From NCBI RefSeq assembly GCF_003387475.1, contig NZ_QUNO01000006.1, positions 1 to 64,000 of the forward strand: a stretch of 64,000 bases of DNA, written 5' to 3'. A model generated the notes under the pieces. The model worked only from the letters and a program-made list of their open reading frames with translations, was not told the DNA's origin and did no database searches. The position numbers were made by a program, and so were the translations under genes. Numbering within the stretch: position 1 is the first letter of the stretch; each line of letters opens with the position of its first letter. Below are positions 33,577 to 64,000 of this stretch, piece by piece. Source of the DNA: Kutzneria buriramensis (GTDB lineage: Bacteria; Actinomycetota; Actinomycetes; Mycobacteriales; Pseudonocardiaceae).

Positions 33577-33753
33577 ATGAAGTCTGCTCCTCCGGTTCGG
33601 CGTCCCGGAAACCGAATCGAAGTGCGGGACAAAAACCCCGCGATAGCAGCGGTAGACCTAGTTGGGGAGTTCTTACGGAAGAGGGGGGTGCCGGTGCACG
33701 CGCGCCAGGACCTCTTCTCGACCGTCACCCAGGGGAAGGTGCACGGCCGATGA
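33577..33753 (+). CDS. Small ORF (up to 58 aa) coupled to the methyltransferase; contains a TTA codon
   Basis: A small frame ending in an ATGA overlap with the methyltransferase start. From the ATG it encodes MKSAPPVRRPGNRIEVRDKN followed by a helical part (AIAAVDLVGEFLRKRG) and a tail VPVHARQDLFSTVTQGKVHG. Codon 33 is TTA, the rare leucine codon read by bldA tRNA in actinomycetes. Third-position GC is poor in the first half and high in the last ~20 codons, so a shorter version from GTG at 33622 or 33688 is possible. It could be a leader peptide controlling the operon, a small peptide substrate, or chance. No family recognised. Confidence 0.35.
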   Translation: MKSAPPVRRPGNRIEVRDKNPAIAAVDLVGEFLRKRGVPVHARQDLFSTVTQGKVHGR

Positions 33754-34529
33754 CGATGGACGCGGAGTTCTACTCCCGAGTGGCCGAGCGGTTCGGCGGC
33801 TACTTCAGCGACGCGCGGAGCACCGACGTTTTTGTCGACGGCCGCCCGGACGCCGTCTTCGATGAAATGGTGGTCGAACTCGGTGCGCCGCAGGCCCGAT
33901 TGCTGGATGTCGGCTGCGCCGATGGGCGTAGTTTGTTGCGCACCGCTCATGCATACGGCGACGTGACCGGCGTGGACCTGTCGTCCGCGATGCTGGAATG
34001 CGCGGCGCGCTATCGAGCGGAGGCGGGCCTGTCCCACGTCACGTTCGAACTGCGCGACGCCGCCCGCACCGGGCTGCCCGATGGACACGTCGACGTGGTC
34101 ACCTCCCGCCGCGGGCCACTGATCGCCGACGAGTTCGAGCGAGTGCTCCGACCCGGTGGGGCCCTGGTGTACATGGGGATCGGCGAGCAGGACGCGCGGG
34201 AACTGAAGGAGACGTTCGGCCGCGGCCAGGACTTCGGCAGCTGGCACGGCGAGCCGTTGGCGGACGGGATCGCGCGGGAACTGACCGACGCGGGGCTCGT
34301 GGTGACGGTCAACCGGGCGTTCCGGTTCGAGGAGTTCTACCACTCGGCGCGCGATCTGGACGTCTTCCTGCACCAGGTGCCGATTCTCGACGGCTACGAC
34401 TCCGCGGCGGACAAGGAGCCGTTCGACCGCTATGTCGCGGAGGCGGCCGTCGATCAGGGGATTCGGCTGGGTCGGCACTGGTTCGTCGTGCAGGCGCGGA
34501 AGCCGGTCGTCGAGACGTCGCACTCCTAG
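33750..34529 (+). CDS. Class I SAM-dependent methyltransferase
   Basis: A 259-residue Rossmann methyltransferase: motif I LLDVGCADGRSLL, then VTGVDLSSAMLECA, FELRDAARTGLPDG and VLRPGGALVYMG. It heads the plus-strand biosynthetic operon and ends 13 bp before queE, so it probably methylates an intermediate or the final product. The acceptor (N, O or C) cannot be read from the sequence. ATG preceded by GGGGAAGGTGCACGGCCG; a second ATG two codons later is possible. Confidence 0.85.
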   Translation: MTMDAEFYSRVAERFGGYFSDARSTDVFVDGRPDAVFDEMVVELGAPQARLLDVGCADGRSLLRTAHAYGDVTGVDLSSAMLECAARYRAEAGLSHVTFELRDAARTGLPDGHVDVVTSRRGPLIADEFERVLRPGGALVYMGIGEQDARELKETFGRGQDFGSWHGEPLADGIARELTDAGLVVTVNRAFRFEEFYHSARDLDVFLHQVPILDGYDSAADKEPFDRYVAEAAVDQGIRLGRHWFVVQARKPVVETSHS

Positions 34530-34542
34530 GAAACGGTGCGCC

Positions 34543-35250
34543 ATGGATCTCGTAGTGAACGAAATCTTCGGCCCGACGGTCCAGGGCGAGGGTCGGTCCC
34601 TGGGACGCAGGTGCGCGTTCCTGCGACTCGGCGGGTGCAACCTGTCGTGCTCGTGGTGTGACACGCCCTATACGTGGGACTGGACCGGGGCCGGCGACAG
34701 CGGCGTCGCCCACGATCCGCGCAAGGAGCTGCACCGCCGCTCGGTGGAGGACGTCCTCGCGGAACTGGTGGAATTCGACACCGACCTGATCGTGATTTCC
34801 GGCGGCGAGCCCCTCGGGCAGCAGGAGCGGCTGATTCCGCTGGTGACGGCGCTGGTGGGGCGCGGCAAGGAAATCGAGATCGAGACCAACGGGACGCACG
34901 CCGCGCACCCCGAACTCGTCGCCGCCGGTGTCCGGTTCAACGTCTCGCCGAAACTGTCGCACTCGGGCGACACCCGCAAGCGCCGGATCGTGCCGGCCGC
35001 TCTCACCAGCCTGTCCGCGGTGTCGGGCAGCACGTTCAAGTTCGTCTGCCGGAACACCCGCGATCTCGACGAGGTGGCCGAGCTGGTGTCCGAATTCGGC
35101 CTGCGTTCGGTGTGGATCATGCCGATCGGGCGCACCGCCGACGATGTCACCAAGCACATGACCGAACTGGCCGACGCGGTGGTCGAGCGTGGCTGGAATC
35201 TGACGACCAGGCTGCACACGTTGTTGTGGGACGACAAACGCGCCGTGTGA
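34543..35250 (+). CDS. queE: 7-carboxy-7-deazaguanine synthase (radical SAM)
   Basis: A 235-residue radical SAM enzyme that converts 6-carboxytetrahydropterin to 7-carboxy-7-deazaguanine (CDG). Cluster cysteines C32, C36 and C39 form the CX3CX2C motif (CNLSCSWCDT). The N-terminal VNEIFGPTVQGEGRSLGR, ISGGEPL, IETNGT and FNVSPKLSHSG are QueE signatures. It is clustered with queD, folE and queC, which together make the preQ0 set. In actinobacterial gene clusters this set supplies pyrrolopyrimidine (deazapurine) metabolites such as toyocamycin. Start at ATG after TAGGAAACGG. Confidence 0.93.
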   Translation: MDLVVNEIFGPTVQGEGRSLGRRCAFLRLGGCNLSCSWCDTPYTWDWTGAGDSGVAHDPRKELHRRSVEDVLAELVEFDTDLIVISGGEPLGQQERLIPLVTALVGRGKEIEIETNGTHAAHPELVAAGVRFNVSPKLSHSGDTRKRRIVPAALTSLSAVSGSTFKFVCRNTRDLDEVAELVSEFGLRSVWIMPIGRTADDVTKHMTELADAVVERGWNLTTRLHTLLWDDKRAV

Positions 35251-35288
35251 GCGACGGCTCACGCGACCGAGAGGGGAAACGCGGCACG

Positions 35289-35651
35289 ATGACGTTTCGA
35301 ATCACGAAGAAATTCGAGTTCTCGGCCAGTCACCAGCTCGCCGGACTGGCCCCCGAACACCAATGCGCCCGAATGCACGGGCACAACTACGTGATCGAGC
35401 TGGAGCTCGGCGCCGAGGACGCGGCGCTGTCGCCGGTCGGCTTCGTCCGGGACTACGGAGAACTGTCGACGATCAAGGCCTGGATCGACAAACAGCTCGA
35501 CCACCGGCATCTGAACGACGTGATGGACAACAACCCGACGGCCGAGAACATGGCGGCCTGGGTCTACCGGACCTGGTCGATGGAGTTTCCCGAGCTGACC
35601 TGTGTGCGCGTTTCCGAAACTCCCAAGACCTGGGCCGAGTACCGGCCGTGA
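35289..35651 (+). CDS. queD: 6-carboxytetrahydropterin synthase
   Basis: A 120-residue PTPS-family enzyme converting dihydroneopterin triphosphate to 6-carboxytetrahydropterin, the QueE substrate. Zn ligands: SASHQL and H30/H32 in CARMHGHNY. C26 is the catalytic cysteine. DHRHLND and PTAENMAAW complete the family pattern. A GAGGGGAA sequence precedes the ATG. Lies between queE and folE in one operon. Confidence 0.93.
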   Translation: MTFRITKKFEFSASHQLAGLAPEHQCARMHGHNYVIELELGAEDAALSPVGFVRDYGELSTIKAWIDKQLDHRHLNDVMDNNPTAENMAAWVYRTWSMEFPELTCVRVSETPKTWAEYRP

Positions 35652-35689: not shown

Positions 35690-36280
35690 ATGTCGGTGAC
35701 GGACTTGGACCTCGACGGCGACCCAGCGGTGTCGAGGACCGCGGAGGACCCGTTGGTCGACCTCGCCCGCCAGCTGTTGAAGGAGATCGGCGAGGACCCG
35801 AATCGCGACGGACTGCGCGACACGCCCGCGCGGTTCGCCCGCTGGTGGCGAGAGTTCATCAACTACGACACCGGTTCGCTGGGCACGCTGTTCGAGTCCG
35901 TCGGCACGAGTCAGCTGGTGGTCGTCTCCGACATCCAGGTGTGGTCGCTGTGCGAGCACCACCTCCTGCCGTTCAACTGCTCCATCACGATCGCCTACCG
36001 CCCGACGGGCCAACTGCTCGGCCTCTCCAAATTCGCGCGGGTGGCCCATCAGTACGCGCACAAGCTTCAGGTCCAGGAGCGCCTCGTGGACCAGATCGCG
36101 CTCGAGATCAGCACGCTGAGCGGCGCCTCGGACGTCGCGGTCATCGCGAAGGGCGAGCACCTCTGCATGACGATGCGCGGCATCAAGGCCGCCGCGCAGA
36201 TGACGTCGACCGCGTACCGAGGAGCGTTCGGCACCGACTCCGGGCTCCGCGGCGAGCTGTTCGACCTGCTCCGGGCGTGA
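35690..36280 (+). CDS. folE: GTP cyclohydrolase I
   Basis: A 196-residue GTP cyclohydrolase IA making dihydroneopterin triphosphate from GTP, the entry point to folate and deazaguanine pathways. Zn-binding C88 and H91 (LCEHHLLPF) and C159 (EHLCMTMRGI) have standard spacing. GLRDTPARFARWWREF and GLSKFARVAHQYA are typical. Its place within queE-queD-folE-queC implies a dedicated copy feeding the deazaguanine branch. RBS GAAAGGTGACCGC. Confidence 0.95.
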   Translation: MSVTDLDLDGDPAVSRTAEDPLVDLARQLLKEIGEDPNRDGLRDTPARFARWWREFINYDTGSLGTLFESVGTSQLVVVSDIQVWSLCEHHLLPFNCSITIAYRPTGQLLGLSKFARVAHQYAHKLQVQERLVDQIALEISTLSGASDVAVIAKGEHLCMTMRGIKAAAQMTSTAYRGAFGTDSGLRGELFDLLRA

Positions 36281-36331: not shown

Positions 36332-37312
36332 ATGAACACCAACAACTCCACGACGCCGGCGGAAGCGGTGCGGCTGCTTCCCGAGCTGGACGCGGACCGG
36401 CTGGTGGCCGACCTCATGACCGCGCGCGGCCACCTGTGGGATGAGCAGAGCTCATTCGTGAACGGGAGGGTGTCGCGGTGGGCCGAACAGGACTGGCGCT
36501 GCCTCCCGGTGCGCAGCCCCGGCGGCGACAAGGCCCGCACCGACCCGGGCGGCCCGGGCAGCGCGGAGTTCGCCGACACCGAGTGGCTGGACCACATGCC
36601 TTACGTTCGTGAGGTCCTGCGCTCGATTCCCGGGACCCTCTACGCGGTCCGCTTCATGGATCTCGGGCCCGACACCATCGGATACCCCCACACCGATCCG
36701 AAGTTCGCCCCGGACTGGGGCATGGCCCGGCTGCACATCCCGGTCATCACCCACGAGAAGGCCTCGCTGGACCTCGACGGCGTGATTCACCGGTGGCAGC
36801 CCGGGGAGTTCTGGTTCGGCGACTTCAGCCGCAAGCACCAGATCCAGAACCTCGGTCCCGAACACCGGGTGCACCTCGTGGTGGACGTGCTCGTCACACC
36901 GGAACTGGCGCAGCTGTTCCCGGCCGACTGGGCCGACTACTTCGCCGGCCCCGAGGTGCTCTACAACCGCCCGGCGGTGGCCGTGACCGACGACGAGCGG
37001 CGCGCCGCGCGGTGTTCCTTCGACGCGCCGGCGCACCTGCTGGAGATCGAGGTGTTCGGGTCGCTGACCGGCGAGCAGCCGCAGGCCACCTTCACCGTGG
37101 TCGACACCGGCACGGGGCTCGCCGTGCGATCTCCCGAGGACCACCTCTTCCCGCTGACAGCCCTCGGCGGACACGAGTACCGCCTGGTCGGGTGGAGCGA
37201 GGAGCGGACCATCGCCCTGCGGCTGGACGGTGCGCGGCCCGAAGCCGAGGTGACCTACCGCAAGGGCCGCCGGTCGTCGCGGCTGTCCGTCCCGGCCACG
37301 CCGGCGGCGTGA
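36332..37312 (+). CDS. Aspartyl/asparaginyl beta-hydroxylase-type 2OG oxygenase
   Basis: A 326-residue protein whose middle (~95-200) matches the aspartyl/asparaginyl beta-hydroxylase family (PF05118), Fe(II)/2-oxoglutarate enzymes. It has YAVRFMDLGPDTIGYPHTDP (putative H-x-D), ARLHIPVITH, WQPGEFWFGDFSRKHQIQN and HRVHLVVDVL. A C-terminal ~100-residue beta-rich extension is of unknown role. Members in NRPS clusters hydroxylate Asp, Asn or other amino acids, free or carrier-bound. Located between folE and queC, so action on a deazaguanine-linked substrate is also conceivable. Confidence 0.8.
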   Translation: MNTNNSTTPAEAVRLLPELDADRLVADLMTARGHLWDEQSSFVNGRVSRWAEQDWRCLPVRSPGGDKARTDPGGPGSAEFADTEWLDHMPYVREVLRSIPGTLYAVRFMDLGPDTIGYPHTDPKFAPDWGMARLHIPVITHEKASLDLDGVIHRWQPGEFWFGDFSRKHQIQNLGPEHRVHLVVDVLVTPELAQLFPADWADYFAGPEVLYNRPAVAVTDDERRAARCSFDAPAHLLEIEVFGSLTGEQPQATFTVVDTGTGLAVRSPEDHLFPLTALGGHEYRLVGWSEERTIALRLDGARPEAEVTYRKGRRSSRLSVPATPAA

Positions 37313-37361: not shown

Positions 37362-38051
37362 ATGCCGAAAACTGTCGCAATCGTGTCCGGCGGTCTGGAC
37401 TCGGTCACCATGGCCTACCACCTCCAGGCGCAAGGACACACGCTCCACCTGCTGTCCGTGAACTACGGCCAGCGCCACCTCGTCGAGCACGAGTTCGCCG
37501 AGAAGACGGCCCGTACGCTCGGGGTGCCGCACGACGTCGTCGACCTCAGCACCGTCGGCAAGTTCCTGAGCGGTTCCTCACTCACCGATGCGACCGTCGA
37601 CGTGCCGGATCACCAGGACGGGTCGTCCGGCACGAGCCCGAACGTCGTGCCCAACCGCAATGCCCTGCTGTTGTCCGTCGCCTTCGCGGTGGCCGTCGCC
37701 GAGACGGCGGAGGCGGTGGCCGTCGGCGTCGTCGACGACCTGAACGCCGCGCCGGACAGCAATGCCGCGTTCATCGATTCCTTCATCGCCATGGAGCGGA
37801 TCGCCACCCGCGGCTACGCCCATCCCGACCTGGCCCTGATCGCGCCGCTGGTCAGGCTGCGCAAGAGCGAGGTCGTGTCGCTGGGCGAGGAACTCGGCGT
37901 CCCGTGGGCCGAGACCTGGAGCTGTTTCCGCGGCGACGCCCTGCAGTGCGGGCGGTGCGCCGCCTGCCGGGAGCGGCAGGCGGCGTTCCGGGACGCCGGC
38001 GTGACCGACCCGACGACCTACCAGACGAGCGACTCGAAGGAGCTGGCATGA
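37362..38051 (+). CDS. queC: QueC-family ATP-dependent enzyme (7-cyano-7-deazaguanine synthase-like), divergent
   Basis: A 229-residue PP-loop enzyme. QueC converts 7-carboxy-7-deazaguanine with ammonia and ATP to preQ0 (nitrile). The pyrophosphatase loop SGGLDS (9-14), VVPNRNALLLSVAFA and four zinc cysteines C188, C196, C199 and C202 (SCFRGDALQCGRCAACRER) are intact. However, the family motif GV-A-D---YPDCRPEF is replaced at residues 122-137 by GVVDDLNAAPDSNAAF, losing the conserved D-C-R. The substrate or the amine coupled may therefore differ. RBS GGGAAGG. Stop overlaps the next gene (ATGA). Confidence 0.85.
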   Translation: MPKTVAIVSGGLDSVTMAYHLQAQGHTLHLLSVNYGQRHLVEHEFAEKTARTLGVPHDVVDLSTVGKFLSGSSLTDATVDVPDHQDGSSGTSPNVVPNRNALLLSVAFAVAVAETAEAVAVGVVDDLNAAPDSNAAFIDSFIAMERIATRGYAHPDLALIAPLVRLRKSEVVSLGEELGVPWAETWSCFRGDALQCGRCAACRERQAAFRDAGVTDPTTYQTSDSKELA

Positions 38052-39070
38052 CCGACCGCTTTCCCGTGCTCGACCTCCGGGACGCCGACGGTTCGGCCGA
38101 GGCCCGGGCGGAGTTCCTGGACCGGTTGCGCACGGCCATCCACGAGATCGGTTTCTTCCAGCTCGTCGGCCACGGCATCGAGGACGCCGACGACATGCTG
38201 GAGCTGGCCCGCCGGTTCTTCGCGCTGCCCGAGGCCGACCGGCTCGCGCTGAACATCCTGGACTCGCCGCTGTTCCGCGGCTATTCCGAACTCGGTCGCG
38301 AACACACCAAGGGCATTCCCGACCAGCGCCAGCAGCTGGACATCGGGCCGGAGCAGCCGGCGCGGACCGCCGCGCCCGGCGAGCCCGCCTACCGGTGCCT
38401 GATCGGCCCGAACGAGTGGCCCGCGGCGATGCCGGAGCTGCGCCCGGCCATCGAGTCGTGGATCACCCGGCTGACCGACCTGTCGCACCGGCTGCTGCGG
38501 CTGATGCTCGAGTCGCTCGACGCCCCCGCCGGGTTCCTCGACGACGTGGTCGACCCGGACCCGCAGATCCACCTGAAGCTCCTGCACTACCCGGGCCCCG
38601 CGCAGCCGCTCCCGGACGCGGACGCCGGCCAGGGGACCGGCATCCACAACGACCTCGGGCTGCTCACCCTGCTCGTGCAGGACGACAACGGCGGCCTCCA
38701 GGTCGCGGTGGAGGACGACCAGTTCGCCGACGTGCCGGTGGTCCCCGGGGCGTTCGTGGTCAACCTGGGGGAACTGCTGGAGGTGGCCACGCGGGGCTAT
38801 GTGCGCGCCACCCTGCACCGGGTGGTCCGGCCCGCCCCGGGCGTCGACCGCTACTCGATCCCGTTCTTCTTCAACCCCCGGCTGGACGCCACCATGCAGC
38901 CGCTGCCCAGCCCGTACGTCGCGGGCGCCGACGGGGCCACCGACGACGCCGACAACCCGCTGTTCGCCCTCTACGGCGACAACGTCATGAAGGGGCTGAT
39001 CCGCTCCTTCCCCGACATCGTCGCCCGCCACCACCCCGCCCTGGCCGCCGGCGCCGCGTCCAGGGGCTGA
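38048..39070 (+). CDS. Isopenicillin N synthase-like 2OG/Fe(II) oxygenase
   Basis: A 340-residue non-heme iron oxygenase of the IPNS/2OG family: N-terminal FPVLDLRDADG and AIHEIGFFQLVGHGIE, then facial-triad H200 and D202 (GIHNDLGLLTLL) and H257 (ATLHRVV), plus the co-substrate arginine motif DRYSIPFFFNP. These enzymes hydroxylate, desaturate or cyclise small molecules. It is translationally coupled to queC through ATGA, which suggests a linked step. The frame is open further upstream inside queC, but homology and RBS support the ATG. Confidence 0.88.
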   Translation: MTDRFPVLDLRDADGSAEARAEFLDRLRTAIHEIGFFQLVGHGIEDADDMLELARRFFALPEADRLALNILDSPLFRGYSELGREHTKGIPDQRQQLDIGPEQPARTAAPGEPAYRCLIGPNEWPAAMPELRPAIESWITRLTDLSHRLLRLMLESLDAPAGFLDDVVDPDPQIHLKLLHYPGPAQPLPDADAGQGTGIHNDLGLLTLLVQDDNGGLQVAVEDDQFADVPVVPGAFVVNLGELLEVATRGYVRATLHRVVRPAPGVDRYSIPFFFNPRLDATMQPLPSPYVAGADGATDDADNPLFALYGDNVMKGLIRSFPDIVARHHPALAAGAASRG

Positions 39071-39090
39071 CCCGAGGCAGAGCAGATCTC

Positions 39091-40914
39091 ATGAGAGTCA
39101 ACCTTCTCGGGCCGCTCCAGGCCTTCGGCGACGACCCCCGCGTCGACCTGGCGCCGGCCGCCCAGAAAGTGCGTCAGACACTGGCGTTGCTCGTGCTCAG
39201 GGCGGGCCAGGTGGTGCGGTTCGAACACCTCATGGACGAGCTGTGGGACGGCGACTCGCCGGCCAGCGCGCTCACCGCGATGCAGACCTACGTGTACCAG
39301 CTCAGGAAGCGGTTCTCGCTGGGGAATCCGAGGAGCGGCGGCGCGGTGCGGCCGGCGGGGCCGCAGCTGGTCACGGTGGACAGCGGATACCAGCTGTCGC
39401 TGCCGGCCGAGCACGTGGACGGCCTACGGTGCGAGCCGCTGCTTGCGCGGGCCCGGGCGGAGTTCGGTGACGGGGACTTCGCCCGGGCCCGCGACACGGC
39501 CGCCGAGGCGCTGCGGTTGTGGCGGGACGACGCCCTGGTGGACGTCCGGAAGGGACCCGTGCTGACCGCGGAGGCGGCTCGTCTGAAGGAGCTGCGGGCC
39601 GGTGCGCAGCACCTGCGTATCGAATCCGACCTCCATCTCGGCCGGCACCACGAGGTGCTCGACGAACTCGCGTCGATGGCCGGGCGGGAGCCGACGGACG
39701 AACGGGCCCAGGGCAACCTGATGACGGCTCTCTACCGCATGGATCGGCGGGCGGAGGCGCTCCAGGTCTACCGGCGGGCCCGCGAGCGGATCGCCTCCGA
39801 GCTGGGGCTCGATCCGTCGCCCCAACTCCAGGCCCTGCACACGGCCGTGCTCACGTCGGACGAGGCGCTGCTGCGTCCCGCCGGGCGACTCACGGCCGTG
39901 AGGGCGGCGACCAGGGCGCCCCGCCACCTGCCCGCGCCGCGTGAGCGTCTGGTCGGACGCGCCGACCAGCTCGCGCGCCTCACCGCGGCGCTGGCCGGCC
40001 GGTCGCGGGCGGATCGGCCGGTCGCGGTCGTGGGCGGCGGCCCTGGCACCGGCAAAAGCGAGCTGTGCTTGCACGCCGCGCACCAGGTCAGCGGTCACTA
40101 CCCGGACGGGCGGCTCTACGCGCGGCTGCGTGACGGCGCCGGCCAGCGGGTGCCGTCCGCCGAGATCCTCCGCTCGTTCCTGCGTGGACTCGGCGCGACC
40201 GAGGAGCAGCTGCGCCTGGGCACGACCGATCTGAGCCTGCTGTTCCGCACCTGGACCGCAGACCAGCGCGTCCTGGTGGTACTCGACGACGTGTGCGACG
40301 CCCGGGACCTGACACCGCTGCTGCCGTCGGGCGCCGGCTGCGGCGTGATCATCGGCAGCCGGCGGCGGCTGTTCGTGTCCTCCTCGGCGGTCCATGTCGA
40401 ATTGGGCGGGCTGTCCTTCGAGGACTGCCTGCGCCTGTTGGCATCCTCGGTGCCGACACATCGGATCACCATGAATCCGGACGGGCTGCAACGGCTGGTC
40501 CGGTTGTGCTGGGGGCTGCCCGGCGCGCTCTTCGCGGTCGCCTCGCAGCTGCGTCGCCGTCCACATTGGACTGCTCGGCAGGCCACCGCCTGGGTTCTCG
40601 CGTCCGACAGCGATCCGCTGGGCGTGCGGGCCGGCTTCGACCGGACGCTGGCGACGCTGCCCGCCGAGTCGCGGCCCCTGGCGTACGCGTTGCTGTCTCC
40701 CGGAGCTGCCGACCGGCTCACGCCGGCGCTGGTCGCGGCGGCCCTGCGAATCGGCGACCAGCAGGCCGAGGACCTGTTGGAGGAGCTGGCGGAGAGCTAC
40801 TTGGTGCGCGCGCAGCAGCCGTGCGTGGACGGCCGGTTCTCCTACGAATGGGAGCCGGGCGTGCGCTCGTTCGCGGCGCGGCCGGACAGCCCGCCGGTCA
40901 TGCGCTCCGCCTGA
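39091..40914 (+). CDS. AfsR/SARP-family pathway-specific regulator with NB-ARC domain
   Basis: A 607-residue activator. An N-terminal OmpR-type winged helix (1-~100; MRVNLLGPLQAFGDDPRVDL) is followed by a bacterial transcriptional activation domain (~110-255, ending YRRARERIASELGLDPSPQL). The NB-ARC ATPase has Walker A GGGPGTGKSE (~315-324) and VLVVLDDV. SARPs bind tandem heptads 11 bp apart overlapping -35 regions; two such sites are seen in this cluster (44328 and 56228). It lies inside the plus-strand operon, so it may be autoregulated. No TPR part follows the ATPase. Confidence 0.9.
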   Translation: MRVNLLGPLQAFGDDPRVDLAPAAQKVRQTLALLVLRAGQVVRFEHLMDELWDGDSPASALTAMQTYVYQLRKRFSLGNPRSGGAVRPAGPQLVTVDSGYQLSLPAEHVDGLRCEPLLARARAEFGDGDFARARDTAAEALRLWRDDALVDVRKGPVLTAEAARLKELRAGAQHLRIESDLHLGRHHEVLDELASMAGREPTDERAQGNLMTALYRMDRRAEALQVYRRARERIASELGLDPSPQLQALHTAVLTSDEALLRPAGRLTAVRAATRAPRHLPAPRERLVGRADQLARLTAALAGRSRADRPVAVVGGGPGTGKSELCLHAAHQVSGHYPDGRLYARLRDGAGQRVPSAEILRSFLRGLGATEEQLRLGTTDLSLLFRTWTADQRVLVVLDDVCDARDLTPLLPSGAGCGVIIGSRRRLFVSSSAVHVELGGLSFEDCLRLLASSVPTHRITMNPDGLQRLVRLCWGLPGALFAVASQLRRRPHWTARQATAWVLASDSDPLGVRAGFDRTLATLPAESRPLAYALLSPGAADRLTPALVAAALRIGDQQAEDLLEELAESYLVRAQQPCVDGRFSYEWEPGVRSFAARPDSPPVMRSA

Positions 40915-42251: not shown

Positions 42252-42292
42252 GCACACACGAACCGGGGACACCCGTGCAAAGGGGAAACACC

Positions 42293-44255: not shown

Positions 44256-44327
44256 CGCGCCTCCCATGGTGAAAGCATTCCAGTCGTAACACAGATTTCC
44301 GGTGCACGGCGGACCGTCGGACGGGAA

Positions 44328-44346: not shown

Positions 44347-44419
44347 TGCCGGGGACCGGGGTGGAACAGTGGCCTCGCGGGCCGACGGCCGGCCATCATC
44401 GAGCAGGAGCGGAGACCGC

Positions 44420-45808: not shown

Positions 45809-45820
45809 CGAGAAGTCGTG

Positions 45821-53957: not shown

Positions 53958-54151
53958 CGTGACGCTCGTACGGAACGCGGGGTCATGTCGGTCCACACCT
54001 GCTCGATGTGGTCCAGGCACTCCTGCCGGCTGCCGTGGGCGGCGGTGGCGGTCCACCCGGCAGGCAGGGCACGGTCGGCGAACCAGATCGAGTACTGCTC
54101 CTCGTGGTTCACCACGACCACGTACCGGTCCTCGGCGTGCGCGGTGCTCAC
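53954..54151 (-). CDS. MbtH-like protein
   Basis: A 65-residue MbtH-family chaperone that binds and activates NRPS adenylation domains. Diagnostic residues: NHEEQYSIWFA, LPAGW, CLDHIEQVWTDMTPRSVR. GTG start overlapping the sbnB stop (GTGA), stop overlapping the thioesterase start (ATGA): a tightly coupled sbnA-sbnB-mbtH-TE-NRPS unit. Confidence 0.95.
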   Translation of the reverse strand: MSTAHAEDRYVVVVNHEEQYSIWFADRALPAGWTATAAHGSRQECLDHIEQVWTDMTPRSVRASR

Positions 54152-56227: not shown

Positions 56228-56246
56228 CGGCTCAACCGCGACTCAA
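56228..56246 (-). promoter_or_regulatory. Candidate SARP box upstream of sbnA
   Basis: On the minus strand: TTGAGTCG-CGG-TTGAGCCG, starts 11 bp apart. It differs by one base from the 19-bp site upstream of the ATP-grasp-like gene at 44.4 kb. It overlaps the stop codon of the stand-alone C-domain gene. After the second repeat, 17 bases lead to CCAGACT, mirroring the other site. This implies an internal promoter for the sbnA-to-NRPS segment under SARP control. Confidence 0.7.
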
Positions 56247-57707
56247 GCGCGCCGGCTCTGCCGCCAACTCGTTGAGGGCGCGGACATAGCCGGCGAGCAC
56301 CGCGTCCGCGGACGCCGGATCCCACCGGTCCGCGGAGTACTCCAGCCACGCCTGGTAGCCCTCCGCCGGGTCGGCGCACGGCACGATGCCGAAGACCAGT
56401 TCCACCCGGGCCGCGGCGGCGGCCACGTCGCGCACCGTGCTGACCAGATCCGGGAAGTCGAGCGCGGCCGGCTGGAAGTTCTGGAACGCGATCCCGTAGG
56501 AAAGACCAGCGGGCACGTCGGTCCGACCGGACTCGCGCAGCGCCCGCAGCACCTCGGTCATCGGCACCGGATTGTCCAGCACGGTCCGGATCTCGACGGT
56601 GGTGCGGTCCACCAACTCGCCGAAGCTCTCCCGTCCGTCCACAGTCACCGCCAGGCCGACGCCCAGACGCGTGCAGCTGACCAGGCTTTCGAACTCGGCG
56701 CGTTCCCGGTTGGCGTAGGACACGCTGAGGACGACGGTGCCACCGGCTGTGCCGGTCAAGTAGGCGCCCAGCGTGGCGGCGGCCACCGCGAACGGCGTGG
56801 TGTCACGCCGGCGGGCGAAGGCTTCCACTGCGGCGCGAGTCGTTGCCGGCACAGTCAATCGTGCGGTGCCGCCGTCGCCGCTCGGCCGTTCCGGTCGCGG
56901 CCGGTCGGCCCGCACCACCAACCCGAACGGCACCTGCGCGAACCGGGCGCGCCAGAACTCGATCGCGCGGGCCTCACGGACCGGGTCCCGATGTTGCTCC
57001 AGCCACCGGGCGTAGCCGGTGGCCTGCGCGCCCGGCGGCTTCAGCCTGGACGGACCGCCGGTGGCTGCGGCGCGGTACAACTCGGCCAGCTCGGTGAGCA
57101 CCACGTTCAAGGCCCAGCCGTCGACGCTGATGTGGTGCAACACCAGCATCAGTGCCCACTCCTGGTCGGCCAGCCGCAGCAACCGGCACACCGGCTCGGT
57201 GCTGACCGCCAGGTCGAACGGGGTGTCCGCGAGGCTCCGGCAGATCTGCTCGTCTCGGTCGGAGGGCTCCGGGAGGTCACGCAGGTCGTCGACGGAGAGC
57301 GGGCATGGCTTGGGCGGCAACACTTGTTGCCGGTATCGACCGTCCGAATCGGACACGAACCGGCAGCGCAGGCTCTCGTGCCGCGCGGTCAGCTCGGCGA
57401 GCGCGGTGCCGAGTGCGGTGACGTCCAGCTTGCCGCGCAGCCCGATCCGGGTCGGCACGTTCCACACCTGCGGCCGGCCGGCCTGTGCGACCGCCGCCAA
57501 CATGGCTTCCTGCTGCGCCGAGGCCGGCGCCTCGTCGACCACGCCGCTCAGCCGGGCCAGCAGCGCGGGCTTGTGCGCGCGCAGTTCGTCGAGCAGGCGT
57601 GGAGTGAGGACCCCGGCCGGCGCGTCGTAGCGCAGCACATCGCCGGCGGCGGTGAGCCGGACGTCGTCCTCCGCCAGCCGCGCCAGCAGCAGGTCCAGCC
57701 CGGTCAC
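56232..57707 (-). CDS. Stand-alone NRPS condensation domain with TubC-type docking domain
   Basis: A 491-residue protein. The first ~60 residues (GLDLLLARLAEDDVRLTAAG, then LRYDAPAGVLTPRLLDELRAHK) match the TubC N-terminal docking domain, which binds the C-terminal tail of an upstream NRPS or PKS partner. The rest is a condensation domain with the active motif HHISVDG at ~191-197. The NRPS encoded downstream starts with a bare A domain, so this protein likely supplies its missing C function in trans. GTG start overlapping the stop of the PKS-NRPS gene (GTGA). Confidence 0.9.
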   Translation of the reverse strand: MTGLDLLLARLAEDDVRLTAAGDVLRYDAPAGVLTPRLLDELRAHKPALLARLSGVVDEAPASAQQEAMLAAVAQAGRPQVWNVPTRIGLRGKLDVTALGTALAELTARHESLRCRFVSDSDGRYRQQVLPPKPCPLSVDDLRDLPEPSDRDEQICRSLADTPFDLAVSTEPVCRLLRLADQEWALMLVLHHISVDGWALNVVLTELAELYRAAATGGPSRLKPPGAQATGYARWLEQHRDPVREARAIEFWRARFAQVPFGLVVRADRPRPERPSGDGGTARLTVPATTRAAVEAFARRRDTTPFAVAAATLGAYLTGTAGGTVVLSVSYANRERAEFESLVSCTRLGVGLAVTVDGRESFGELVDRTTVEIRTVLDNPVPMTEVLRALRESGRTDVPAGLSYGIAFQNFQPAALDFPDLVSTVRDVAAAAARVELVFGIVPCADPAEGYQAWLEYSADRWDPASADAVLAGYVRALNELAAEPARLSRG

Positions 57708-60700
57708 AGCTCGCCCCGGACCCGGCCCGACAGCCGCGCCACCATGCCGGCGACCGTGGGGGCGTCGAAGAACTCGCCGAGCGGGTAGTCGGTGTCGAAC
57801 CGGGTGCGGATCCGGTTGAGGAGCGTGATGGCGTTGACCGAGTGACCACCCAGGTCGAAGAACCGGGTGTCGTCGGCGAACTCCCGGTTGCCCAGCACGG
57901 CGGCCCACTCCGCCCGCACCGCGCTCCTGGTGTCGAGGTCGGCGGGCGCGTGGTGGTCCCATTTTCCGTTGCCGTTCAACGGGAATTCCCGCACCACCCG
58001 CCAGTGCAGCGGCACCATCGGGCGGGGCAGCACCTCGGCGAGCTGCGCCCGCCAGCGTGCGGACTGCTCGGCCAGCGGCTCGTCGCTGCGGATGTAGCAG
58101 ATCAGCTCGCCGTCGGCGGCGACCACCCGAGCGTCCGGGATGCCGGGCAGCTTGCGGACCGCCGCCGTCACCTCGGCCGGTTCCACCCGGAAGCCCCGGA
58201 TCTTCACCTGGTCGTCCACGCGGCCGGCGAAGTCCAGCTCCCCGTCCGGACGCAACCGGGCCAGGTCGCCGGTTCGATACCAGCGGCGGTCCTCCGCGTC
58301 CGTGCTGAACCGGGCCGCCGTCAGCACCGGGTCGGCGTGATACCCGCGCGCCACCTGGGGACCGCTGACGTGCAGTTCCCCAACCGCTCCCGGCGGCAGC
58401 ACCCGGCCCGACGCGTCCCGGATCTCCAGGCGCATGCCGGGATTGGCCGTGCCGATGGAAGGCATGCCCGACCCGTCCGGCGTCACCGGCCCCCAGGAGC
58501 AGAACACGCAGCACTCGGTGGGGCCGTAGATGTTGTACACGGTGAACGGGACGTCCGGGCGCGGGCGCGTGGTGAGGCGCTCCCCGCCGGTGCACAGCAC
58601 CCGGAGCGCCGCGTCGGCCGGCCACGGCTCGCGCAGCACGGCTTCGGCGATCACGGTGGGCAGGAACGCGACCGTGATGCGAGTCCGGACGAACCAGGCG
58701 ACCAGTTCGGCGGGATCGAGCCGCGTGTCCTCCGGCACCACGTGCAGTTCCGCGCCGGTCTGCAGCGCCGGCCACACCTCGACCAGGCTGGCGTCGAAAC
58801 CGGTGCTGCTGTACCAGGACAGCCGGTCCTGTGCGGTGATTCCCAGCCGGTCCCGGTACACCTTCAGCACAGCCGCGACGTTGCCGTGTTCGACGGCCAC
58901 GCCCTTGGGTCGCCCGGTCGACCCTGAGGTGTAGAGCAGGCACAGCAGGTCCACCGGCTTTGCGTTGATCGCCAGGCGGGTGTCGGCTCGGCCGCCGGGG
59001 TGAACGCGGGGCAGGCCGAGATCGGGCTGGAAGTCCGGCGCACACACGATGGCGGCTGGGGCGGCGTCGGCGAGCATCGCCGCGCATCGGGGCCACGGCT
59101 GTCCGATGTCCAGCGGCAGATAGGCGGCGCCGGTGGCCAGCGTGCCGAGCATCGCGGCGAGAAAGTCCGCGCCTCGGGGCAGCGCCAGCGCCACCACGTC
59201 GCCCGGGCCGACCCGCAGTGCGGCCAGCCGGTCGGCGATCGCCGCGGCGGCGGAGGAAAGCTGCGCGCCCGGAACGCGGGCGTCCGCCGCGACCACAGTG
59301 GTGCGCAATACTTCCGGCAGGGCCAGGTCGAGAACGGCGTCGTCCGAGGCCGGATCCTCGTCGACGACACCGGTGCGCAGCTCGCCGATCCGGGTGGTGG
59401 AGGTCGCGTCGGCCATACCCGCCAACACCAGTTCCAGCTGGGCCAGATAGCCGCGTGCGGTGGACTCGGCGTACAGGTCGCTGTCGTAACGCAGCCGCAG
59501 CCGCAGCCCGGAATCGGTGCGAACGGCCATCAGGGACAGTTCCAGCGGCGCGGACTCGGTGCCAGCGGTCACCGGTTCCGCCCGCAGGCCGGGCAGGTCG
59601 ATGCCGGCCAGCGGCTCGTCGTCCAGGTCGACCGACACCGGGATGAGCGGCCGGGCAGCGCCGGGATCGGGGTTGACCGAGGACAGCAGCGTGTCCAGGT
59701 CGACGTGACTGCGCCGACTGGCCTGGAGGACCAGGTCGCGGGTGGCGCGCACGGCCGACCGTAGCGACAGGTCGTCGGTCAGCCGTGCGCGCAGCGGCAA
59801 CAATGCGGCGAAGAAGCCGATGGTGTTCCTTGCCGCCGTGGGCCGGGCGTTGAAGGTGGCGCCGAGCAGGAACTCGTCCTGGCCGCTGAACCGGCGCAGC
59901 ACGATCCGCCAGGCGGTGTGCAAGGTCGCCAGCAAGGTGACGCCCTGCTCGCCGCTCCACCGTCGCAGCGTCTCGGTGCGCTCGGCGCTGAGCACCGTGC
60001 CGACCGAGCCGCCCCGGCCGGCGACGGTGCGGGTGCGTGGCCGGTCGGTCGGCAGGTCGAGCACCGGCGGCTCGGCGCCGAGGTGCGCGCGCCACCAGTC
60101 CAGGTCGGCCGGTTCCGGCATGGCGGCGGGCAGGTCGAGGGTAGATCCTGGCGGGCCGGCCCAGCGCGGCGGCCGTGCCTCGGCGGCGGCGCGGTAGTGC
60201 TCGGTGAGGTCGGCGGCCAGCACACCGGCGGAGTGGCCGTCGGTGATGATGTGGTGGCTGTTCAGGATCAACACGTGGTCGTCGGCCGCCAGACGCAGCA
60301 GGCGCGGGGTGAACAACGGCCCCTCGGCCAGGTCGCGGTGGCGGTGGCTCTCCGCCCGGATCGCCGCGGCGATGTCAGCGTCCGGATCACCGGTGCCGAG
60401 CTCGACGGTGAGCGGTACCTCGAGTTGGTCGAGCACGACCTGGTGGAGGGTGTCGTCCGCGGGCCGGAAGACCGTACGCAAACCCGGATGCCGCTCGACC
60501 AGTCCGCGCAGGGCGGTGCGCAGCACGGACTCGTCAAGTCGACCGTGCAGCCGGACGGCCTGGATCTCGTTGTAGGCGTTGGGCCGGATCAATTGGCAGG
60601 CCAACCAGATCCGGCGTTGCGCCGGTGTCGCCGGCGCTTCCGTCCTGGCGGGCGCGGCGTCGTGGAAGCGGCGGCGCAGGCGATCGAGAGCGATCAGGCC

Positions 60701-63700
60701 GGTCGACACCTTCTCGGCGGGCAGGCCGAAGTCGACCAGCGCGGCGATCTCGGTGACGCCGGCGTCCCGCAGCGCGTCGACCGTGGCCGCGCAGCTTTCC
60801 GGCGTGCCGATCAGCGCCCGCCGGTCGCAGTACCGGTCGTAGGCGCGGCGGAACAGCCGTTCCAGGTCCTCCTCGCTCGCCGCCGCCAACTCTGCGGGAC
60901 CGGGGCCGGCCGCGCTGGCCGCCGAGCGCATCAGCAGGGATGACCGCAGGTAGCGGATCATCGGTTCGGCGGCGTCCGCCCGGGCCGTCGCGTGGTCGTC
61001 GGTGACGTAGGTGTGCAACAGCACGGTGACCCGGCCGGCGTCCGGGTCGAGGCCCGCGTCCGCCCTGGCCCGCCGGTACACCCCGATGTTCTCGGCGAGC
61101 TGCTCGACGGTCTGGCTCATCAGGTTGGTCACGACGCCGAGGTCGAGCCGGCCGGCCTGCGCGTAGGACTCCGGACGTCCCGATGTGGCCAGGAACATCG
61201 GGGGCTGGTCCTGGACCGGCCGCGGGTACACCCGGACGTCGACCGGCTGCCCGTCGCCGGACCGGCGGGACACCGCCTCGCCCCGCCAGAGCCGCCGTAC
61301 CTCGTCGAGGCCGTCGAAGGCGATGTCCCGGCGCCGGTCGAACCGCTCCGGGTGCAGCGCGAAGTCCTCGGCGTGCCAGCCGGTGCCGAAACCGAGACCG
61401 ACGCGGCCGGCGGAGAGGTTGTCCACCACGGACCACTCCTCGGCGACCCGGATCGGGTCGTGCAGCGGCAGCACCACGGACCCGGCGTTGAGCCGGACCC
61501 GGCTGGTGTGCCGGGCCAGCGCGGCGGCCAGCACCGAGGGGTTCGGGAACAGGCCGCCGAAGGAGTGGAAGTGCCGCTCCGGCAGCCACACCGCGTGGAA
61601 GTCGTGCTCGTCGGCGAACCGGGCGGTGTCGAAGATCAGGTCGTAGTGGCGTTGCTGGTCGCCTTCGGCCGAGTCGCCGAAGAAGTAGACGCTGAAATCC
61701 GGCGCCGGTCGCGGCCTCACGACCGGCGCCGGCCGTGAGGCCGGGCGCGGGTCCGGGAAGTAGCCGGCGCGGCGCAACTCGCCCAGCGAGTCCTGCACGG
61801 CGTCCACGATGTGGTCGATGTCGGCGTCGGTGTGCGCGGTGGACAGGTAGCAGCTGCGCCATTCCCAGACGTAGACGCCACGCAGCAGCAGGTGGTGGTA
61901 GAGCAGCTCCAGGTCGGCGCGGTGGGTGAACCGGAACATCGAGCCGAACCAGTCCATCCGCAGCGGGAACGCCTCGTCGGCGAAGAACGTGTTCAGGCGC
62001 TCGCCCAGCCGCGCGGTGCGGGCGTTCACCGACTCCTGCACTTCCGGCCCCTGGTCGCGCAGGTGGGTCAGCACGGCGCGAGCCGCGGCCATCGACACCG
62101 GGTGCTGGATGTAGGTGCCGCCGTAGAACACGGTGTCCCGGGTGGGACGGGAATCGTCGCCGTAACGCCAGAATCCGCCGTCCACACCGTCCAGGATGTC
62201 GGCCCGGCCGGCAATCGCGCCGATCGGGAAGCCGCTGCCCAGCGCCTTGCCGTAGGTGGCGAGGTCGGCGGTCACGCCGTAGTGGTGCTGGGCGCCGCGC
62301 TGGTGCGGGCGCAGGCCGGTCAGCATCTCGTCGAAGATCAACACGATGCCGTGGCGCCGGGTCAGCTCACGCAGCGCGCGGACGAACTCGACCGGACGCA
62401 GCGCGGGATTGCGGCACTGCACGGGTTCCACCAGCACGGCGGCGATCTGCCCGGCCTGGGCCGCGATGACGTCGAGGCTTTCCGCGCTGCCGTACTCCAG
62501 CACGATCACCTCGGCGACCGCGCTGTCCGGGATGCCGGCCGAGGCCGGCACGGTGCGCAGCTGGCCGCCGGGGCGGCCGAGCAGCGAGTCGATGTGGCCG
62601 TGGTAGGCGCCGCGGAAGGTGACGATCCTGGTGCGGCCGGTCGCGGCTCGGGCCAGCCGGATCGCGGCCGAGTTGGCCTCGGTGCCGGAGTTGGCGAAGG
62701 CGACCCGCTCGGCGCCGGTCAGTTCGGCCAGCAGCTGCGCGGCCTCGCCGGTGTCGGCACTGCGCGGCCCGAGGCGCAGCCCGTGCGCCAGGTGCTCGCG
62801 CACCGCCTCGGTGACGAACTCGGGCTCGTGGCCGAACAGCAGCGCGCCGAACCCCATCGTGATGTCGACATAGCTGTTGCCGTCGACGTCCTCCAGCCGG
62901 GAGCCCCGCGCCGCGCGGCTGACGATCGGGTAGAGCATTTCCTTGGTGGCGCTGCGGAATCCGACCACGGCGCGACTGTCTGCGAGCACGCCGCGATACC
63001 GCGCTGCCTGCTCCTTGGAGCCCTTCGTGCGTTCGGTCAGCCGCCGGACCAGTTCGTCGGCATGCGCCCGCTGCCGGTCGCCGGCCGCCGCGACCATTCC
63101 CGAGTCGACGGGGACGCTGACCCTCGGGCCGTCCACCAGCGGCGCGGGCGGTTCCACCGGTTCCATCGGCTCGACCGGCACCGGCTCATCGTGCCGGGCC
63201 TGGATCGGCTCGGGTTCGACCGGTTCGGGTCGGGGTGGTTCGGTTGCGGTGCGGCGGGTGCCGATGAGCTCGGCGACCATGTTCGGGTTGGGGGCGGCAT
63301 CGAGCAGCTCCGCCATGTCGATCTCGACGCCGTACTCGCCCTCCAGCGCGACCATGATGCCGACCAGCTGCAGCGAGTCGGCGCCGAGGTCCACAAAGGA
63401 TCGATCCGGGTCGATCTCGCCGGGCTCGTAGCCGAGATGACGCGCCGTCAGCTCGATCACCCGGGTCACCGTTTCCGCCGCCACGCTTCCTCCCTTGTGC
63501 TGCTGATCGGGCCGCTCGCCGCCCAGCGGCGGTCCCACCCAGTGCCTGGTGGGCCGGAACGGGTAGTGCGGCAACGAGATCCGGCCGCCGCCGCTACCGG
63601 CCAGCTCGGCCGCCCAGTCGATGTCCGCGCCCAGGCAGTAGGACCGGGCCAGTTCGCCGTCCGGCCCCGAACCGATGCCCCGGTCGGGCGAGGCCGAGTC

Positions 63701-64000
63701 CGGGCCGGCGTTCGGGCGGTCCAGGGCGTCGGCGAGTTCGGCCGGTGTGCGGCCCAGCGCGACCAGGCGGTGGGTGAAGTGCCGTCGGCCCAGCGCCGCG
63801 GTGGTGAGCAGGTCCGTCGGGCTGGTGTCGGGATGGCGGCGCAGGTGATCGCGGTAGGCGGCGGCCAGGTCGGCCAGGGCCTGCGGATCGCGTGCCGACA
63901 AAGGCAACACGCCCGGCACCGGCCGGCGATGCCGGGCCGGGGCGGCCGGTGGCGCCTCCAGGATCACGTGTGCGTTGGTGCCGCCCATGCCGACCGAGTG
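57704..64000 (-). CDS. Hybrid PKS-NRPS: (KS)-ACP-aminotransferase-LLM-C-A-PCP, N-terminus beyond window
   Basis: Partial; the gene continues past the right edge. Visible order, counted from the methionine at 63988: KS C-terminal end (GMGGTNAHVILEAP), KS-AT linker passing straight to a post-AT linker (LPHYPFRPTRHW) with no AT domain, then ACP (GADSL, Ser205). A class III aminotransferase follows (~320-745, PLP Lys581 in TYGKALGSGFP), then a luciferase-like monooxygenase (~758-1105), C (HHIITDG at ~1245), A (YTSGSTGRPKG at ~1685) and PCP (GGHSV, Ser2050). The layout recalls MycA/ItuA of mycosubtilin/iturin, where a trans-acting AT and an internal aminotransferase give a beta-amino acyl unit; the LLM would add a hydroxyl. 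A-domain residues read D-A-V-T-C-G-I-V-F, not assigned. Confidence 0.93.
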   Translation of the reverse strand, partial: HSVGMGGTNAHVILEAPPAAPARHRRPVPGVLPLSARDPQALADLAAAYRDHLRRHPDTSPTDLLTTAALGRRHFTHRLVALGRTPAELADALDRPNAGPDSASPDRGIGSGPDGELARSYCLGADIDWAAELAGSGGGRISLPHYPFRPTRHWVGPPLGGERPDQQHKGGSVAAETVTRVIELTARHLGYEPGEIDPDRSFVDLGADSLQLVGIMVALEGEYGVEIDMAELLDAAPNPNMVAELIGTRRTATEPPRPEPVEPEPIQARHDEPVPVEPMEPVEPPAPLVDGPRVSVPVDSGMVAAAGDRQRAHADELVRRLTERTKGSKEQAARYRGVLADSRAVVGFRSATKEMLYPIVSRAARGSRLEDVDGNSYVDITMGFGALLFGHEPEFVTEAVREHLAHGLRLGPRSADTGEAAQLLAELTGAERVAFANSGTEANSAAIRLARAATGRTRIVTFRGAYHGHIDSLLGRPGGQLRTVPASAGIPDSAVAEVIVLEYGSAESLDVIAAQAGQIAAVLVEPVQCRNPALRPVEFVRALRELTRRHGIVLIFDEMLTGLRPHQRGAQHHYGVTADLATYGKALGSGFPIGAIAGRADILDGVDGGFWRYGDDSRPTRDTVFYGGTYIQHPVSMAAARAVLTHLRDQGPEVQESVNARTARLGERLNTFFADEAFPLRMDWFGSMFRFTHRADLELLYHHLLLRGVYVWEWRSCYLSTAHTDADIDHIVDAVQDSLGELRRAGYFPDPRPASRPAPVVRPRPAPDFSVYFFGDSAEGDQQRHYDLIFDTARFADEHDFHAVWLPERHFHSFGGLFPNPSVLAAALARHTSRVRLNAGSVVLPLHDPIRVAEEWSVVDNLSAGRVGLGFGTGWHAEDFALHPERFDRRRDIAFDGLDEVRRLWRGEAVSRRSGDGQPVDVRVYPRPVQDQPPMFLATSGRPESYAQAGRLDLGVVTNLMSQTVEQLAENIGVYRRARADAGLDPDAGRVTVLLHTYVTDDHATARADAAEPMIRYLRSSLLMRSAASAAGPGPAELAAASEEDLERLFRRAYDRYCDRRALIGTPESCAATVDALRDAGVTEIAALVDFGLPAEKVSTGLIALDRLRRRFHDAAPARTEAPATPAQRRIWLACQLIRPNAYNEIQAVRLHGRLDESVLRTALRGLVERHPGLRTVFRPADDTLHQVVLDQLEVPLTVELGTGDPDADIAAAIRAESHRHRDLAEGPLFTPRLLRLAADDHVLILNSHHIITDGHSAGVLAADLTEHYRAAAEARPPRWAGPPGSTLDLPAAMPEPADLDWWRAHLGAEPPVLDLPTDRPRTRTVAGRGGSVGTVLSAERTETLRRWSGEQGVTLLATLHTAWRIVLRRFSGQDEFLLGATFNARPTAARNTIGFFAALLPLRARLTDDLSLRSAVRATRDLVLQASRRSHVDLDTLLSSVNPDPGAARPLIPVSVDLDDEPLAGIDLPGLRAEPVTAGTESAPLELSLMAVRTDSGLRLRLRYDSDLYAESTARGYLAQLELVLAGMADATSTTRIGELRTGVVDEDPASDDAVLDLALPEVLRTTVVAADARVPGAQLSSAAAAIADRLAALRVGPGDVVALALPRGADFLAAMLGTLATGAAYLPLDIGQPWPRCAAMLADAAPAAIVCAPDFQPDLGLPRVHPGGRADTRLAINAKPVDLLCLLYTSGSTGRPKGVAVEHGNVAAVLKVYRDRLGITAQDRLSWYSSTGFDASLVEVWPALQTGAELHVVPEDTRLDPAELVAWFVRTRITVAFLPTVIAEAVLREPWPADAALRVLCTGGERLTTRPRPDVPFTVYNIYGPTECCVFCSWGPVTPDGSGMPSIGTANPGMRLEIRDASGRVLPPGAVGELHVSGPQVARGYHADPVLTAARFSTDAEDRRWYRTGDLARLRPDGELDFAGRVDDQVKIRGFRVEPAEVTAAVRKLPGIPDARVVAADGELICYIRSDEPLAEQSARWRAQLAEVLPRPMVPLHWRVVREFPLNGNGKWDHHAPADLDTRSAVRAEWAAVLGNREFADDTRFFDLGGHSVNAITLLNRIRTRFDTDYPLGEFFDAPTVAGMVARLSGRVRGEL

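Follow-up and report, generated by a model that had tools for sequence, protein, structure and literature searches.

The stretch examined here, called the window, spans positions 1 to 64,000 of a 605-kb contig (NZ_QUNO01000006.1, our contig C6) of the 12.0-Mb genome of Kutzneria buriramensis, and its second half carries a cluster in which genes for deazaguanine, L-2,3-diaminopropionate (Dap) and peptide biosynthesis lie side by side. Genes were called from codon-position GC content, and their products were scanned with Pfam and NCBIfam profiles. The locus consists of two units (Table 1): a conserved core at 33.75–56.2 kb, and a three-gene cassette at 56.2–66.4 kb. The core encodes FolE-, QueD-, QueE- and QueC-like proteins, a methyltransferase (MT), 2-oxoglutarate (2OG) oxygenases, a SARP regulator, ligases of three types, SbnA and SbnB, a thioesterase (TE) and a nonribosomal peptide synthetase (NRPS). 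The cassette encodes a major facilitator superfamily (MFS) protein, a polyketide synthase (PKS)-NRPS megasynthase with ketosynthase (KS), acyl carrier protein (ACP), aminotransferase (AMT), luciferase-like monooxygenase (LLM), condensation (C), adenylation (A) and peptidyl carrier protein (PCP) domains in the order KS-ACP-AMT-LLM-C-A-PCP, and a free TubC_N-C protein. On balance, the locus is probably a SARP-controlled system of two layers, in which a deazaguanine-Dap-dipeptide core has captured a cassette for an alpha-hydroxy-beta-amino acyl unit.

Every element named in the original prediction, which had been made from the letters of the window alone, was found by the profile scans, but that inventory lacked the free C gene, the FemX-like ligase, the TE and the transporters. 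The three 2OG oxygenases are unrelated, as had been said, and belong to different Pfam families (PF05118, PF14226/PF03171 and PF10014); the two ATP-dependent ligases are an ATP-grasp/L-amino acid ligase (LAL) and a protein weakly similar to GSP_synth (20.7 bits, cut-off 29.3). The genes scanned from 69 kb on encode carbohydrate uptake proteins, a PfkB-type kinase, a DeoR-type regulator, glycosidases and one protein without a Pfam match.

Table 1. Features of the K. buriramensis locus (contig coordinates)
Feature	Position	Strand	Evidence and remarks
Class I SAM methyltransferase (MT), first gene of the que operon in 10/10 cores	33750..34529	+	PF13649/PF08241; 71-82% in relatives
queE-like radical SAM, 7-carboxy-7-deazaguanine synthase	34543..35250	+	TIGR03365 97 bits, below equivalog cut-off 206
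queD, 6-carboxytetrahydropterin synthase	35244..35651	+	TIGR03367 84.9 bits, below cut-off 89.25; CxxxHGH present
folE, GTP cyclohydrolase I	35690..36280	+	PF01227 177.5 bits, 2.2e-52
AspH/cis-proline-hydroxylase-like 2OG oxygenase	36332..37312	+	PF05118; closest solved chain L-proline cis-4-hydroxylase, 6.6e-6
QueC-family enzyme, altered pocket (APDS for YPDC, CF for CY)	37362..38051	+	PF06508 178.1 bits; TIGR00364 152.0, cut-off 150.3
IPNS/ethylene-forming-type 2OG oxygenase	38048..39070	+	PF14226 and PF03171; 9ovh 3.2e-57
SARP-type regulator (BTAD, NB-ARC)	39091..40914	+	PF03704 2e-39; in 10/10 cores
ATP-grasp / L-amino acid ligase	40983..42251	+	PF13535, PF18130, PF18603
Third 2OG oxygenase, IDO type	42275..43033	+	PF10014 1.9e-49
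FemX-like ligase fold (fem), true start probably near 44255	43107..44399	-	PF09924 1.8e-4, below cut-off
SARP box, divergent fem/gsp promoter	44328..44346	+	cluster motif matched exactly
GSP-synthetase-like ATP-grasp ligase (gsp)	44420..45808	+	PF03738 2.6e-4, below cut-off
Core MFS exporter (predicted)	45818..47083	+	PF07690
NRPS, A-PCP-C-A-PCP	48333..53207	-	domain scan; A-domain codes
Stand-alone thioesterase (TE)	53220..54056	-	PF00975 8.8e-35
sbnB, Dap biosynthesis	54148..55167	-	TIGR03944 408 bits, cut-off 327
sbnA, Dap biosynthesis	55181..56197	-	TIGR03945 373 bits, cut-off 350
SARP box, sbnA operon; overlaps stop codon of the cassette's last gene	56228..56246	-	motif match
Free condensation gene with TubC_N docking domain, 491 aa, last cassette gene	56232..57707	-	PF00668 1e-40, PF18563 1.9e-11
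KS-ACP-AMT-LLM-C-A-PCP megasynthase	57704..64000 in window, start 65260 outside	-	domain scans
Cassette MFS gene, outside window	65196-66446 (start 66446)		precedes PKS-NRPS gene

The core recurs in nine other genomes at 69–93% protein identity, which makes ten cores with that of K. buriramensis. Seven of the nine, all in Streptomyces, come from one scan for the AspH-like protein (queries from the window and from the genome G106) of a collection of 84,980 species: 83 stretches matched, 20 of them encode a relative, and seven of the 20 have the que operon, MT, regulator and ATP-grasp gene adjacent. The scan patterns require exact heptapeptides, so that seven is a lower bound. The core of G106 came from a family search, in which 45 of 390 genomes (own included) held a relative of the GSP-like protein at 1e-20, and the ninth lies on p1, a 616-kb circular plasmid of Streptomyces angustmyceticus; the core can therefore occupy a non-chromosomal replicon. 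The NRPS is 84–90% identical in the eight genomes that were searched whole, and QueE, in which the CxxxCxxC motif is present, is 86-89% identical in the relatives. All 16 core genes, with the exchangeable oxygenase left out of the count, are found in G106, S. kronopolitis, NRRL S-337, NBC_00568, S. filipinensis (diox present, 84%), S. rhizoryzae and S. angustmyceticus. The core of S. iranensis is split over two contig pieces, with sbnA cut at residue 204 of 338; that of S. olivochromogenes is spread over three, with only the end part of sbnA found, fem (84%) and gsp (83%) on the third piece, and mfs1 sought on the first two. An 8.9-kb contig of the same genome (L094) has the 3' part of sbnA at both ends in opposite orientations, which suggests two sbnA copies. 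Three relatives of MT in the family, at 32–37% identity, had no que genes in their 3.5-kb stretches.

The cores differ in regulators and oxygenases. All nine relatives have a second SARP gene upstream of MT, and none was found at 30–70 kb of the window contig. The site after the ATP-grasp gene holds an oxygenase of the IDO type (PF10014) in five cores (the window, S-337, S. filipinensis, S. rhizoryzae and S. olivochromogenes) and instead a WelO5-like protein (PF22814, 28.1 bits, cut-off 27) in four (G106, S. kronopolitis, NBC_00568 and S. angustmyceticus). The two proteins are not alignable; the WelO5-like one appears hydroxylase-like, judging from an HxD...H...R motif read by eye. S. olivochromogenes has a partial match to it on another contig, and neither oxygenase was found in S. 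iranensis. NRRL S-337 has a PhyH-family oxygenase between gsp and fem (L083, 18577-19431), so some cores hold a further 2OG enzyme; S. rhizoryzae has a gene of equal size at this site, a likeness of length and position, not of compared sequence.

The cluster QueC is a single protein of 229 residues, and its pocket is altered in all ten cores. The site that reads YPDC in QueC is APDS in nine cores and APDA in one, and the Cys-Tyr site in the zinc region is CF in seven and CM in three; the SGGxDS P-loop, VPxRN and the zinc cysteines are kept in 10/10. A class search (12 of 394 genomes with a match, own included) gave 13 QueC-family proteins from 11 other actinobacterial genomes for comparison, and among these YPDC is kept in 10 of 13 and CY in 12 of 13. 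Those off YPDC are L121, L128 and L129 (SPDC, YPDT and LPDA), the first of which is also off CY. In a mutational study of the E. coli enzyme (PMC13329287), Y131A and Y189A are reported as inactive for queuosine formation, and Y131F as partly active. Because the core enzymes lack both of these tyrosines, on which E. coli QueC depends, the pathway may not stop at free preQ0. Of the two changes, Tyr-to-Ala at 131 is the stronger point; the Phe that seven cores have at 189 may do no harm. The original prediction had spoken of a full gene set for preQ0: the folE, queD, queE and queC-like genes are indeed there, but the preQ0 part is doubtful, given a QueC without two residues that the E. coli enzyme cannot exchange for alanine and stay active.

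Dap and its ligation are the second theme of the core. The AspH-like oxygenase has relatives at 13 non-core loci. In four of these (L067, L068, L070, L071; two Streptomyces, Kitasatospora mediocidica and a Rhodococcus), the relative stands next to sbnA and sbnB and to AsnB-like, ATP-grasp and DdaG-like genes. Against the NCBIfam model of the fumarate–Dap ligase DdaG, whose equivalog cut-off is 700, the DdaG-like protein of L067 scores 343.6 bits (E 1.4e-102); its counterparts at the other three loci are 60–82% identical to it. K. mediocidica also encodes a relative of the FemX-like protein. Since its homologues sit in such dapdiamide-type loci, the AspH-like oxygenase probably acts on Dap or N-acyl-Dap, although nine of the 13 loci lack the association. 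Three of the AspH-type loci, in Actinokineospora and Saccharothrix (L074, L075, L077), represent another cluster type with genes for a SARP, an EFE-type oxygenase, an MFS protein, an ATP-grasp enzyme and the AspH-like protein; L074 additionally encodes a ThyX-like protein and a second ATP-grasp enzyme. Genes for DdaG-like and AsnB-like (DdaH) proteins gave no tblastn match at 1e-10 in the window stretch or in the relatives' stretches other than S. olivochromogenes contig C9. QueC-type activation of CDG (7-carboxy-7-deazaguanine) could stand in DdaG's place.

The core ATP-grasp protein matches the DdaF model NF041595 weakly (22.1 bits of 840) and is 32% identical to the ATP-grasp protein of L067. 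The AlphaFold model of the FemX-like protein is moderate (pLDDT 59), with A-PGS, FemX and Sbb17/Sba18 as best PDB fold matches in Foldseek, whereas gsp has a sub-threshold Pfam match and an AlphaFold pLDDT of 36; a sequence search of PDB with both proteins gave no match. The specificity codes of the NRPS were read by eye against the GrsA positions: A1 reads DILQLGLVW in all nine sequences compared and A2 DNWNFGEVT in eight of nine. We take the A1 code to be Gly-like, DILQLGLIWK being a code for Gly. The nearest PDB chain of both domains is linear gramicidin synthase A, in which the best match of A1 is the second A domain and that of A2 the first; the second domain activates Gly, in weak agreement with the A1 code. 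No C domain precedes the first module of the NRPS.

What ties the two units together is regulatory DNA. An 11-bp-spaced direct repeat is present in all eight sbnA promoters aligned, window included; such heptamer repeats are what we take to be a SARP box. Its 19-base core, TTGAGYCGCGRTTGAGYCG, has three exact matches in the 12-Mb genome, at contig positions 44328, 56246 and 66734, preceding gsp, sbnA and, beyond the window, the cassette. All three lie in the locus, which rules out a chance occurrence of the shared motif and bears out the earlier suggestion that shared regulatory motifs join both arms, SARP binding itself being a prediction. Looser matches mean nothing, because up to two mismatches gave six matches against three for a reversed control pattern.

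The box before the cassette sits on a 174-bp duplicate of the sbnA promoter region that extends into the first codons (135 of 174 positions identical) and encodes a truncated SbnA ending at a stop codon. Identity is 24/25 within the box and 111/149 in the rest (P about 0.006 in a simple binomial test, chosen after seeing the difference), so that the box was apparently preserved as the remainder of the relic decayed. Decay of the relic also means that the capture of the cassette is not fresh, and since a duplicated sbnA promoter now precedes the cassette, its expression should be turned on by the same SARP. A similar sbnA relic with an exact box lies in S. kronopolitis between the ATP-grasp and WelO5-like genes; this can be seen in two ways, as a sign that sbnA ends are a rearrangement hot spot, with the relics as scars, or that spare sbnA promoters are repeatedly put to use.

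The cassette has a distribution of its own. Its AMT-LLM part found matches at 1e-120 in 37 of 386 family genomes (own included), and the four best other cassettes are 75–76% identical (genomes G186, G220, G174 and G358). The free C gene, which lies between the PKS-NRPS gene and sbnA and overlaps the PKS-NRPS stop by four bases, is 47-54% identical to its counterparts there. The order MFS, PKS-NRPS, free C is kept in G186, G220 and G174; G358 has the PKS in two frames followed by free C, and no MFS relative was seen. Within the 40-kb stretches examined around these four cassettes there was no que or sbn gene, and none of the four has a comparable box in front. The eight neighbours of these cassettes that were scanned encode an AraC-type regulator, UvrD and SNF2 helicases, a radical SAM protein, a polyprenyl synthetase, a kinase, a phosphatase and a protein whose only match is collagen-like. 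The isolation of the cassettes is not complete: biosynthetic partners are possible in three of the genomes, given a pair of ATP-grasp-like genes 3–10 kb downstream in G220 and NRPS-like matches where the stretch ends in G186 and G358. The genes of G220 (L111-L112) might be a second way of combining the cassette with ligases.

The catalytic motifs, which were located by eye (Cys/His/His of KS, Ser of ACP, Lys of AMT), are present in the window and the four relatives, and TIGR04020 is matched with 457.6 bits, above its cut-off. The domain order is consistent with assembly of a beta-amino-alpha-hydroxy acyl unit and its condensation with one amino acid. The cassette is not beside any of the nine other cores, where for S. 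angustmyceticus this refers to a 40.7-kb stretch. Whole-genome searches of the eight other core genomes gave a cassette relative above 60% identity in S. olivochromogenes alone (67–69%), and there it lies on another contig than the core, without a SARP box, near an M18 aminopeptidase gene (L092-L093). A resistance copy of such an aminopeptidase would fit a bestatin-like aminopeptidase inhibitor. Nine cores without an adjacent cassette rule out a single ancestral hybrid pathway, and the idea that the PKS/NRPS arm is an intrinsic part of the pathway fails on the same ground and on the four genomes that carry it without the core. Because the cassette is independent of other cores and shares the core's box on a decayed sbnA promoter, the hybrid is better seen as a strain-specific, co-regulated capture than as the general form of the cluster.

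We propose the following pathway. FolE, QueD and QueE would make CDG, SbnA and SbnB would make Dap, and the two-residue NRPS would supply a dipeptide, Gly-like-X by its predicted A-domain substrates. The QueC-family enzyme and the ATP-grasp, FemX-like and GSP-synthetase-like ligases would join CDG, Dap and dipeptide by amide bonds; 2OG oxygenases and MT would decorate the product, and an MFS pump would export it. In K. buriramensis the cassette would probably add a piece made of an alpha-hydroxy-beta-amino acyl unit and an amino acid, and the free C protein is a possible bridge to an NRPS that lacks a C domain before its first module. We favour, as a prediction, a CDG-amide peptide built on dapdiamide-like Dap chemistry, and the amide-linked pyrrolopyrimidine of the original prediction is a reasonable guess; we infer the bond identities, ligase assignments, A-domain substrates, SARP binding and union of both arms in one molecule.

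Several other accounts of the deazaguanine genes have to be weighed. That they serve tRNA queuosine and lie here by chance could draw on the only strong QueC of the genome being the cluster one; its probability is nevertheless close to nil. The tRNA-guanine transglycosylase (TGT, PF01702) has no match in the K. buriramensis genome (control 14/14) and the same que genes stand in the same cluster in all ten genomes, so that queuosine is excluded as their purpose as far as sequence can say, and they belong to the biosynthetic cluster. An ordinary route through the preQ0 nitrile, as in toyocamycin and huimycin, with MT acting as an O-methyltransferase and the base attached without new QueC chemistry, seems to us somewhat unlikely. 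It accords with a QueC score just above the equivalog cut-off, with the kept P-loop, VPxRN and zinc cysteines, and with the methyltransferase gene among the huimycin que genes (PMC7439116); here, MT adjoins queE, which is a matter of position only. Against it stand the two changed pocket positions, with the inactive E. coli mutants Y131A and Y189A (PMC13329287), even with Phe at 189 in seven cores, and the absence of a glycosyltransferase or phosphoribosyltransferase among the core genes scanned. Improbable, in our estimate, is a role of the deazaguanine as mere precursor, opened or rearranged so that the final product has no pyrrolopyrimidine: several oxygenases have no assigned substrate, but no ring-opening hydrolase was recognised among the core genes scanned, and nothing speaks positively for it. 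Our own more specific proposal, that QueC does not make preQ0 but activates CDG and couples it to a small-molecule amine (the Gly of the NRPS dipeptide, or Dap), with the product capped by the captured cassette here, is speculative and somewhat unlikely. Cap9, the CDG-coupling QueC relative considered below, itself keeps YxDC, so that the altered pocket could instead reflect another substrate, e.g., methylated CDG.

The separate occurrence of core and cassette, in nine cores, in four genomes with the cassette and on different contigs of S. olivochromogenes, is also what would be seen if two independent pathways simply adjoined, one for a deazaguanine-Dap compound and the other for a small alpha-hydroxy-beta-amino acyl dipeptide of its own, with only regulation in common. 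We regard this as a serious possibility, though we lean against it, in view of the exact SARP box that precedes the cassette and of the cassette's last gene lying head-to-tail on the sbnA promoter. Some observations do weigh against a captured cassette feeding the core pathway and against altered QueC chemistry. The free C gene did not arise as a bridge, because it accompanies the cassette in genomes without this NRPS, and no docking partner for it was found on the NRPS. The relic is about equally far from its own sbnA (77.6%) and from those of the relatives (77.6-79.8%), and since S. kronopolitis has a similar one, the cassette box could be incidental and the relic a rearrangement scar. Finally, seven of the ten core QueCs still have an aromatic residue, Phe, at 189, whereas the replacement reported for that position (PMC13329287) is Y189A.

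If the two-layer, CDG-amide reading is true, the locus would define a natural-product class in which a modified guanine base is joined to a Dap peptide by amide bonds, and would give the QueC scaffold a small-molecule ligase role besides those in tRNA and DNA bases and in phage defence. The promoter relic would be a concrete case of a cluster gaining a ready-made cassette under its own switch. The hypothesis is directly testable, because ten genomes hold the core, one of them on a plasmid, and the suspect QueC is one protein of 229 residues.

No deazaguanine–Dap or deazaguanine–NRPS product was found by searches of open-access papers, outside which a description could exist; parts of the locus do resemble known systems. 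The dapdiamide pathway, with models of DdaG and DdaF in NCBIfam, has in common with the core an MFS protein, an ATP-grasp ligase, a 2OG oxygenase and Dap synthesis of the SbnA/SbnB type; the core differs in its que genes, FemX-like ligase and two-module NRPS and in that DdaG- and AsnB-like genes were not found in the stretches searched, which covered the ten cores apart from S. olivochromogenes contig C9. FemX/Sbb17-type aminoacyl-tRNA-dependent ligases share the fold of the moderate fem model, at identities of about 10-15%; the substrate and tRNA dependence of the core protein are putative. Microginin/puwainaphycin- and bestatin-like pathways have the same KS-ACP-AMT-LLM order for a beta-amino-alpha-hydroxy acyl unit, whereas the cassette has neither an acyltransferase domain nor a loading ligase, and is followed by the free TubC_N-C gene. 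The toyocamycin and huimycin clusters (PMC7439116) likewise keep folE, queD, queE and queC together, that of huimycin with a methyltransferase; the core has no sugar-attaching gene in the Pfam scan of its genes, and adds Dap, an NRPS, amide ligases and an altered QueC pocket. A parallel for the predicted conjugation is Cap9, a QueC relative of the type IV cyclic oligonucleotide-based antiphage signalling system (CBASS), which is reported to couple CDG to the N-terminal glycine of a protein (PMC13279940, PMC13329287). Cap9 keeps YxDC, whereas the core QueC has neither the Tyr nor the Cys, and no CD-NTase is among the genes scanned; common to both are a QueC-family enzyme, a CDG supply and a glycine acceptor, which in the core is suggested by the Gly-like code of NRPS module 1. 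The core would then be a small-molecule counterpart of protein deazaguanylation by Cap9.

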